Positions 24,593 to 52,018 of a stretch of DNA of 64,000 nt are shown here, in pieces (within the stretch, counting starts at the first letter, position 1; every line of letters starts with the position of its first letter). Under the pieces are notes generated by a model, which was not told the origin of the DNA, ran no database searches, and worked only from the letters and a program-made list of their open reading frames with translations. The stretch is from Desulfitobacterium dehalogenans ATCC 51507 (lineage in GTDB: Bacteria > Bacillota > Desulfitobacteriia > Desulfitobacteriales > Desulfitobacteriaceae), in contig NC_018017.1 in NCBI RefSeq assembly GCF_000243155.2, positions 372,001 through 436,000 on the forward strand. The letters run 5' to 3'. The position numbers and the translations under genes were made by a program.

Positions 24593-24642
24593 AGAGATTC
24601 TTGGCCTCCTTTAATTGTGAATTGTATGCTGCATAGAGTCAA

Positions 24643-24690
24643 ATAATAAATAAACCATCAGTCTTTAGGTGACGGATGGTTTATTTATTA
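24643..24690. repeat. AT-rich inverted repeat, 17-bp arms
   Basis: ATAATAAATAAACCATC (24643-24659) and its exact complement (24674-24690) flank a 14-bp centre in which GTC and GAC can pair as well. It lies about 50 bp before the penicillin-binding protein start and about 120 bp before the panB promoter. It could be a bidirectional terminator-like fold, a regulator site or a miniature repeat. Nothing else in the gap at 24593-24800 is recognisable. Confidence 0.6.
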
Positions 24691-24812
24691 TGCTTATTAA
24701 GATATACGCAGAGCCTGAAAATTTTAAGGGGGTATTGATTATATAGTTTAGCAGTCAGATGTAGAACCTGAAATTAATCTTTATCACTATAGCCGTGCCG
24801 GATAGAATTTGC

Positions 24813-24818
24813 TATACT
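24813..24818 (+). promoter_or_regulatory. extended -10 promoter of panB
   Basis: TGCTATACT is an extended -10 element; no good -35 is seen, which extended -10 promoters tolerate. Transcription would start near 24825, exactly before the first arm of the leader stem at 24825-24833. Confidence 0.5.
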
Positions 24819-24824
24819 TGATGT

Positions 24825-24996
24825 GGGCAGTATCATTCGAACTGCACCTTTTCATGAGAACCATTCAATTTATACTGCCTGTATCCAATACGGACCGGGA
24901 CAGAGGGATAAAACAGTGCTGCATTTTTGCGAGTTCCTTCTGACAAGGGGGAACTTTTTTGTTGTTCTGTTTTGTCTTCTCTCCTGAAAAAAGGAG
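24825..24996 (+). ncRNA. structured panB leader, candidate regulatory RNA
   Basis: The leader can form a 9-bp closing stem, GGGCAGTAT (24825-24833) with ATACTGCCT (24872-24880). A GTAT/ATAC hairpin follows, then a terminator-like hairpin (AGTTCC 24932-24937 with GGAACT 24950-24955, plus T-run to 24960). Finally CTCCT (24981-24985) can pair with the ribosome site AGGAG (24992-24996). This succession of aptamer-like fold, terminator and masked ribosome site is typical of a riboswitch. A 'pan' RNA motif upstream of pantothenate genes has been described in Firmicutes; whether this is a member needs a covariance-model search. Confidence 0.5.
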
Positions 24997-25001
24997 GAAA
25001 A

Positions 25002-25841
25002 ATGATGAAAACCACCAAAGACTTCTGGGCAATGAAAAGTGAGGGGAAAAAGATTGTCATGGTTACCGCCTACGATTACCCCTCGGCCAGGCAAGCTGAA
25101 CAAGCAGAAGCGGACATGATTCTTGTGGGGGATTCTCTGGGCAATGTGGTGCTGGGCTATGACTCTACGGTTTATGTTACCATGGAGGATATGGTCCATC
25201 ATGCGAAAGCAGCTAAACGTGGGGCTCCGAACACTTTTATCGTGGCGGACATGCCTTTTATGAGCTGCCATCTGTCTGTCAGGGATACTTTGCTCAATGG
25301 GGCAAGGCTGATTCAGGAGACGGGGGCCCACGCTGTGAAAGTGGAAGGGGCGGACGAGATGATCCCTCATATTAAAGCCCTTGTTCGCGCAGGGATACCT
25401 GTAGTATCGCATCTTGGTCTTACACCCCAAACAGCTGCCCTTCTCGGTGGCTTTAAAGTTCAGGGCAAAGATGCGGAAGCTGCTCAAAAAATGTTGGAGG
25501 ATGTGAAGGAATGCCAGGATGCTGGAGCCTTTGCCCTGGTCCTGGAATGTATTCCTAAACAGCTTGCCCAGGAGATTTCTACGACCTTGACAATTCCCAC
25601 CATTGGTATCGGAGCAGGTGTTCATACCGATGGACAAGTTCTCGTGTACCATGACATACTCACTTATGGAGTGAATCGGGCTCCCAAGTTTGTCAAAGCT
25701 TATGTCAACGCCGATGAACTCATGATCAAGGGATTGAAAGCCTATGCGGATGAAGTAAGAAGTATGAATTTCCCTGATGATGAGCACAGCTTTACCATGA
25801 AAGAAGAGGAATTAAAAACCTTGTATGGAGGTAGGAGCTAA
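25002..25841 (+). CDS. panB: 3-methyl-2-oxobutanoate hydroxymethyltransferase
   Basis: PanB makes ketopantoate from 2-oxoisovalerate and methylene-tetrahydrofolate, the first committed step of pantothenate and coenzyme A synthesis. The 279-residue length is normal. Motifs are VTAYDYPSA and [15 protein letters not shown] at the N-terminus (Mg and ketoacid site), [26 protein letters not shown] and [15 protein letters not shown] start at the ATG at 25002 after AGGAGG; a second ATG follows at once. panC and panD are not next to it, so the pathway genes are scattered or supplied elsewhere. Confidence 0.95.
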
Positions 25842-43656: not shown

Positions 43657-43960
43657 ATGAGCTCAAGCTGCATAGAATACAACATATCCTTTTTCTTTTT
43701 GGATAAGATGTTGCCATTAATGCAATCTGAATATGAAATGCACGTCATGAAGGGAAAGAGTAGAAAGATACCTGTGTCAAAGAGAGGGTGGAAAAGGTGG
43801 AAGCCATCCCGGAGGATCTTTTGAAGTGCGTCCTGGAGCGTTAGAAGGATGGACACATTCTTCCGTAAAGCTGCGTTAAGGCTATAAGTGGAGCAGGAAA
43901 CTGTTCAATCAGAGTGGAACCGCGGAAATCCTTCGTCTCTGGACGAGGGGTTTCCTTTTT
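43657..43960 (+). ncRNA. T-box leader, cysteine-specific
   Basis: This 5' leader senses uncharged tRNA. The T-box itself, AGAGTGGAACCGCGG, is at 43911-43925. A candidate Cys specifier TGC followed by A lies at 43739-43742. A terminator stem (GGAAATCC 43924-43931 with GGGGTTTCC 43947-43955, then TTTTT) overlaps the T-box, as needed for antitermination. The specifier is read by eye; the genes it controls (cysE, cysS) agree with cysteine. Low tRNA-Cys charging should raise both cysteine synthesis and tRNA charging. Confidence 0.92.
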
Positions 43961-51856: not shown

Positions 51857-52018
51857 GAATTGAACAGCCTTCCACTGTAGACAGCAGGTGCTCTTAGAGC
51901 TTAATGTCCTGCCGAGGTTGGAAAGATAGCCTTAAGTTATATTGGGCCTTCTTAACCTCTGCAGTCGAAGCGGAGGTTTTTCTACTAGTGTGGGTATTTC
52001 GGAAGGAGGTGGACTTAA
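51857..52018 (+). ncRNA. ribosomal protein L10 leader
   Basis: The 162-nt leader has the usual L10-leader position, upstream of rplJ. Its central part (about 51880-51930) includes AGCAGGTGCTCTTAGAGCTT and TGTCCTGCC, which pair as in known L10 leaders. A terminator hairpin follows (AACCTCTGC 51954-51962 with GCGGAGGTT 51970-51978 and TTTTT). Excess L10-L12 complex is expected to bind and reduce expression. The family assignment is by eye. Confidence 0.8.
51954..51981 (+). terminator. attenuator of the L10 leader
   Basis: The 9-bp stem (one G-U) plus five T, lying 38 bp before the rplJ start codon, can stop transcription in the leader. Confidence 0.75.

Follow-up and report, generated by a model that had tools for sequence, protein, structure and literature searches.

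The panB leader in the window analysed here (a stretch of 64,000 nucleotides, from a genome that consists of a single contig of 4,321,753 bases) is a good but unexceptional representative of the pan RNA family, and its main interest lies at the level of that family: a switching mechanism tested by covariation, together with a regulon pointing to coenzyme A (CoA). Our full model, which we regard as probable, is that the pan RNA would lower panB expression when CoA is sufficient, through a factor that holds its hairpins, with control exerted at both a terminator and the ribosome site (SD). The computational support consists of the family membership of the leader, the covariation seen in the hairpins and in the antiterminator, the composition of the regulon, and a second pairing across panB leaders that is weak within the genus. 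From these data we infer that the bound state would be the "off" state, that the signal would be CoA or a late precursor of it, and that a protein is the likelier sensor.

The Rfam pan model (RF01749) matches the forward strand at 24824–24907 over its full length (model positions 1–92 of 92), with 67.6 bits against a gathering score of 36.2 and an E value, in the window, of 1.1e-9. The earlier note had proposed this Infernal search and had left the choice between the pan motif and a new RNA undecided; the match identifies the pan motif. The Rfam model, the parser, and folding place pan hairpin 1 at 24824–24849 and hairpin 2 at 24875–24903 (both + strand), and both (24824–24903) have the stem with two bulged As that RF01749 describes. 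In hairpin 1, each side of the stem carries one bulged A, with 5 bp between the two, and the outermost pair is a U·U mismatch in leader folding; hairpin 2 has the same layout, with a U·C mismatch adjoining its 5′ bulged A. The 25-nt linker between them gives the tandem arrangement of most pan members. A possible extended −10 promoter read by eye (TGcTATACT, 24810–24818, + strand) would place the transcript start at ~24824, close to where hairpin 1 begins; this candidate has no match among the hexamer-pair promoter predictions.

Downstream of the hairpins on the same strand, the terminator search recovered an intrinsic terminator hairpin at 24931–24956 (dG −14.4; U tract from 24955), one found as compared with a shuffle mean of 0.4. 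Folding predicts a further hairpin at 24980–24997 (+ strand; dG −8.0) that hides the panB SD, with the anti-SD at 24980–24985 and the SD at 24992–24997; panB itself, encoding ketopantoate hydroxymethyltransferase (Pfam PF02548, E 5e-108), occupies 25002–25841 (+ strand), with its ATG at 25002 or 25005. Two alternative pairings connect these elements. The 3′ end of hairpin 2 and its tail (CAGAGGGA, 24901–24908, + strand) form the left arm of an antiterminator, making 8 pairs with the terminator 5′ arm (UCCUUCUG, 24935–24942, + strand). The tail strand (24902–24916, + strand) can also pair, according to folding and the panB-leader test described below, with 24967–24982, which includes part of the anti-SD strand; in the window leader, the anti-SD end of this pairing is rich in GU pairs.

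The fold stability of the 151-nt leader has a z score of −2.61 relative to shuffles, of which 3 of 200 were equally good. The earlier note had read the leader as a closing stem, an internal hairpin, a terminator-like hairpin, and a stem hiding the ribosome site. Two hairpins, a terminator with a U tract, and an SD hairpin are indeed present in order, but there is more doubt about the closing stem with its internal hairpin. In the minimum-energy fold, the 5′ arms of hairpins 1 and 2 pair with each other, an arrangement that is possible in the window leader; the structure that covaries is that of two tandem hairpins. Elsewhere in the window, a strong AT-rich inverted repeat (AATAATAAATAAACCATC...GATGGTTTATTTATTAT, 24642–24691) lies in the gap separating the pan RNA from a divergent penicillin-binding-protein-like ORF and may be a terminator or a binding site, and Rfam matches above cut-off mark a T-box leader (43738–43943, 107.8 bits) and a ribosomal L10 leader (51857–51991, 66.5 bits).

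Within the source's class, 53 of 82 genomes carry RF01749, as do 152 of 398 sampled genomes of its phylum. The loci taken comprised 177 pan loci of the phylum, a part of those listed, and 20 extra ones; at least 119 named loci came from one pattern scan of genome contigs, and the named and unnamed sets overlap (for example, L229 and L131). Both hairpins share a common layout of 3 bp, a 3′-side bulged A, 5 bp, a 5′-side bulged A, 2–3 bp, and a loop. The conserved part is small, being made up of the bulged As, UC/GA pairs, and few other positions, with variable loop lengths. Among the 158 loci in which both hairpins parse well, the linker spans 21–113 nt (median 35), and swapped arms matched the pairing of a locus's own arms in 0/2000 trials for both hairpins, as was also the case in 30 non-redundant loci; the arms were located by a parser that rewards pairing, and pair-type counts lean toward structure. 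Absence of covariation across homologous leaders was one of two observations that the earlier note had named as telling against its reading; covariation is found both in these hairpin arms and in the antiterminator.

Pairing between the two 5′ arms was rejected as a family feature, with swaps doing as well in 0/2000 trials for the 158 loci but in 410/2000 for the 30 non-redundant loci. None of the three other cross-arm combinations was significant in the 30 non-redundant loci, and only that of the hairpin 1 3′ arm with the hairpin 2 5′ arm was significant (6/2000) in the 158. The parser threshold for hairpin 1 (9.5) is weak, the 95th percentile of background windows being 10.2; it was passed by 170 of 177 phylum loci as compared with 75 of 119 named loci among the matches listed, and single-hairpin pan forms may therefore exist elsewhere. 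Deltaproteobacterial, Nitrospinia, and Methylomirabilis records (L204, L220, L239, L188) carry a pan-like hairpin 2 before panB with no convincing hairpin 1 found, and are possible single-hairpin forms.

A strict filter placed a terminator downstream of 107/176 pan loci, as compared with 2.6 expected; this filter was too strict, as many of its apparent misses, including the second pan locus of the source genome (L002), show terminators by eye. Under a laxer rule, terminators were found in 154/169 loci (50.7 expected), and the remaining 15/169 have none even then. Across the family, the 3′ arm of hairpin 2, together with the bases that follow it, shows complementarity to the 5′ arm of the terminator. 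The antiterminator test left out 8/177 loci because hairpin 2 was poor or the sequence short, and 7 of the 154 terminator loci in which the gap was too short; hairpin-2 nucleotides were included in 134/147 of the resulting duplexes. Summed own pairings exceeded swapped ones with 0/10000 exceptions at n = 147, 96, 48, and 28, sets of falling identity, the last consisting of loci less than 45% alike. The effect is modest (16.1 own versus 14.5 swapped) because CCTTC is common to many terminator arms; locus by locus, 76/107 lie above their own median swap and 9/107 in the top 5%. Complementarity is kept with differing letters in CGAATGCG/CGCATTTG (L089), GGTGAAGG/CCTTCACT (L035), and GGACAGAAGG/CCTTCTGACC (L109).

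Since hairpin 2 and the antiterminator have a strand in common, they are mutually exclusive, and a held hairpin 2 frees the terminator to form. Judged from these pairings, hairpin 2 should act as an anti-antiterminator, such that keeping it folded turns the gene off. The duplexes and swaps reported above correspond to a sensor hairpin and an expression platform that exclude one another, as in a riboswitch-like attenuator. Folding of the window leader by transcript length gave the antiterminator a probability of 0.99–1.0 with the terminator 5′ arm out (24943–24950); once the terminator 3′ arm was out (24957), equilibrium folding gave 0.96 for the terminator and 0.01 for the antiterminator. Because the antiterminator retains only this small share at equilibrium once the terminator 3′ arm is made, the switch in the window leader must be kinetic. 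In the model, terminator and antiterminator would race each other, with the result set by a factor that holds hairpin 2.

At the ribosome site, 18 of 20 aligned panB leaders share the anti-SD CTCTCCT, and the other two (L004, L013) have other pyrimidine strands there. The test of this arm used 30 of 35 panB-first leaders, five having been dropped with no SD located; pairing between the tail and the strand just upstream of, and partly including, the anti-SD was matched by swapped combinations in 0/5000 trials. Taken singly, 9/30 leaders, two of them the congeners L007 and L012, did not exceed their swaps. The strongest examples are L105, L080, and L013. In L105, GGAAAAAACCA and TGGTTTTTTCC have wholly different letters, yet pair over 11 bp; L013 keeps the SD arm and has no terminator by either the strict or the laxer rule. 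In the full window leader, equilibrium folding assigned the SD hairpin a probability of 0.85–0.88 even with the tail/anti-SD helix partly formed. Such folding does not support opening of the ribosome site in the window leader, and our confidence in the full switch model is lowered on this account. Another family provides four genomes (L153, L298, L301, L302) in which the SD of panT is the pan tail itself, and the pan family seems to have at least three forms of output. The panT genes of these loci (G347, G301, G431, and G160, respectively) have an apparent AUU/AUA start rather than AUG, 8 nt past the SD GGGAGG, in all four genomes examined from that family.

Gene context was assigned from phmmer matches to 13 reference proteins on the same strand within 4.5 kb, and "operon" here denotes such proximity; family names were taken from representatives scanned against Pfam and NCBIfam. 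A pantothenate/CoA or birA gene lies downstream in 173/177 phylum loci (in one, L052, as a 20.6-bit fragment only), and the first such ORF starts no more than 300 nt from hairpin 2 in 170 of the 173. Pantothenate synthesis genes follow in 145/177 loci, and in 11 more with coaX or birA besides. Importers (PanT, BioY-like, PanS, PanF-like, and OPT) and pantothenate kinases are also preceded by pan RNAs. PanT operons, some with BioY-like, birA, or coaX genes, account for 8/177 loci and five of the extra 20; PanS with panC/panD for 5/177 and one of the extra 20; and OPT with a type II pantothenate kinase for three (L125, L143, L144). One further locus (L311) has DUF997 and a PanF-like symporter, with TIGR02119 matching at 275 bits over the 211 residues present (full-length cut-off 328). 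The PanS match, at 314 bits, is under its cut-off of 400, and the type II kinase match, at 236.5, is just above its cut-off of 234; for the "PanT" proteins, the only match is to the general ECF S-component family PF12822, and the name comes from their position beside coaX.

Similar contexts occur in Chloroflexota records. ABC ATPase genes come after pan in L181 and L191, with PanT and coaX next, and the clusters of L180 and L269 likewise end in PanT and coaX; the record titled Ktedonobacter racemifer (L294) has PanT together with two ABC ATPases and a CbiQ-type T protein, and no coaX in the stretch examined. In Dehalococcoidia, a peptidase S58 gene comes first, then DUF2520-panD-panB-panC (L202 by Pfam; L208, L226, and L262 by likeness); peptidase S58-type enzymes can release beta-alanine, a pantothenate precursor. 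Pectinatus haikarae (L183) has panC-panD-panS behind pan, and Paradesulfitobacterium ferrireducens (L232) has DUF2520-panC-panD-birA-coaX, with no good hairpin 1 found. An amidohydrolase gene lies between pan and birA in two genomes (L131/G162, L306/G122), with panT and coaX following the amidohydrolase-birA pair in L306 and in the longer record of L131 (L229). Naming the DUF2520 protein as a ketopantoate reductase was rejected: Pfam gives DUF2520/Rossmann-like, with oxidoreductase weaker, and the sole NCBIfam match is far below cut-off.

The source genome itself has a second, weaker pan match outside the window (C1:123791–123925; 33.8 bits, below the cut-off of 36.2). It heads DUF2520-panC-panD (DUF2520 and panC by Pfam, panD by reading), after which nadB, nadC, birA, and coaX continue on the same strand (by reading; coaX, C1:130006–130614, also by Pfam); the panD-nadB gap of 358 bases leaves room for another promoter. 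Among the phylum loci with at least 1 kb of sequence, no recognised gene was found downstream of L028 and L112, and among the 97 listed named matches with at least 1.5 kb, none was found for four (L219, L246, L266, L272). Two of these, L219 and L266, appear to be chance matches; L246 has a terminator-like sequence and a substrate-binding protein, and L272 (Anaerolineae) begins with two ABC ATPases in the stretch available. Two pan RNAs appear to have lost the panB they once preceded: one (L028, G057) is followed by a sigma-factor-like ORF and has terminator-like and anti-SD-like sequence, and the other (L052, G020) has the 20.6-bit panB fragment followed by an MFS transporter.

Six genomes (G086, G453, G442, G267, G150, G367) carry two pans, one on synthesis and one on uptake/kinase genes, and 11/152 pan-positive genomes have no panB match. 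The loci seen in 10 of these 11 comprise six PanT operons, two PanS-panC-panD, one OPT-PanK2, and one panC-panD, such that pan lies on uptake or kinase operons in 9/10 of those genomes. Because pan thus stands on importers and a kinase in organisms that seemingly do not make pantoate, its signal is likely to lie downstream of pantothenate, and these data point to a signal beyond pantothenate, most simply CoA; the wider regulon narrows the signal toward the CoA end of the pathway. It also marks transporters for testing, namely the OPT-family proteins and the BioY-like proteins beside PanT and CoaX. The OPT proteins beside type II pantothenate kinase are candidate importers of pantetheine-type CoA precursors; yeast Opt1 is reported to import CoA precursors as glutathione mixed disulfides (PMC12406275).

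In the full model, a trans-acting factor, probably a dimer gripping both hairpins, would convey a high CoA level by stabilising the two pan hairpins. With hairpin 2 folded, its 3′ arm could not pair with the terminator 5′ arm, the terminator would form, and transcription would stop near 24960; transcripts that read through would keep the SD hairpin closed. With the factor absent, the freed strand would pair first with the terminator arm, allowing transcription to continue, and later with the anti-SD strand, opening the ribosome site.

That pan is itself a riboswitch, its tandem hairpins binding CoA or a late precursor directly with no protein needed, is a possibility that we take seriously while doubting it. 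Cofactor riboswitches such as TPP and FMN typically govern synthesis and uptake jointly, the guanidine-II class binds its ligand directly with two hairpins that are also simple, and the pan operons examined share no recognised gene; against this, the conserved part of the RNA is small, its loop lengths vary, and linkers of 21–113 nt fit two separate protein sites. A passage of PMC9971707 names CoA as a cofactor surprisingly without a known riboswitch, whereas the 2010 authors, in the accessible text of PMC2864571, suggested a dimeric protein-binding motif. A bolder form of the proposal can be offered only tentatively: the pan RNA may be the missing CoA riboswitch, its tandem hairpins sensing CoA or 4′-phosphopantetheine directly and controlling, in Bacillota, Chloroflexota, and several other phyla, the steps that lead to phosphopantothenate from ketoisovalerate or from imported precursors, with the terminator and the SD switch both driven by a single freed strand.

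Pantothenate itself (or pantoate), whether detected by protein or by RNA, is an unlikely signal. Pantothenate synthesis genes do lie downstream of most pan loci, but pan also precedes pantothenate-consuming kinases, as well as importers in panB-less genomes; repression by pantothenate would then block its use. Pantothenate kinase CoaX is a very improbable RNA-binding sensor: coaX occurs in 148/152 pan-positive as compared with 210/246 pan-negative genomes (p 5e-5, from counts by eye and a test that ignores kinship), and several pan operons contain it, but it is present in 358/398 genomes anyway, and CoaX was rejected in this role as two nearly complete pan-positive genomes (G174, 97%; G238, 99%) have no coaX match. 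The DUF2520 protein was likewise rejected as the sensor, being missing from many pan operons. Terminators are common upstream of genes, but a plain terminator and SD hairpin with no regulation and incidental pan hairpins is scarcely credible given the full-length Rfam match, the covarying hairpins, and the covarying alternative pairings.

A factor-held pan RNA responding to CoA, the model preferred here, extends the existing account of the motif. The accessible text of Weinberg et al. (2010; PMC2864571) describes two tandem stems with two bulged As each, upstream of panB, and names as targets the operons of panB, panC, or aspartate decarboxylase, with no switching mechanism. The window leader has the same tandem stems and location before panB, and matches the model over its full length; relative to that description, the antiterminator, the SD arm, and the uptake/kinase targets are added here. 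RNA-seq studies place the motif before panB operons (PMC4342826 and PMC5670726, in part), and the accessible portions of these two papers and of PMC2864571 make no mention of importers, kinases, or an antiterminator alongside it. Searches of open full-text papers, with supplements, most subscription papers, and preprints outside their reach, found no account of a pan regulon with importers or kinases or of an antiterminator, and the literature found assigns no signal to the 2010 motif. The main text of a 2024 B. subtilis CoA study (PMC11487621) contains neither "riboswitch" nor "RNA motif"; the B. subtilis genome, used here as a control, carries a pan match, its pan RNA preceding the panB operon, and makes the question of the signal testable. 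The covarying antiterminator offers a simple read-out of the pan RNA.

The closest parallels lie in three known systems. TPP and FMN riboswitches follow the same logic, in which the level of a cofactor controls both its synthesis and its import through terminator or SD hairpins; pan differs in consisting of simple tandem hairpins. PyrR-type attenuators likewise use a protein that holds an anti-antiterminator hairpin and so lets the terminator form, as would occur with pan, with the differences that pan has two sites instead of one and that its binding protein is hypothetical. Guanidine-II (mini-ykkC) RNAs, for which Rfam gave no match in the window leader, likewise have two simple hairpins and a variable linker; their conserved nucleotides lie in the hairpin loops, whereas those of pan lie in the bulged As and stems.
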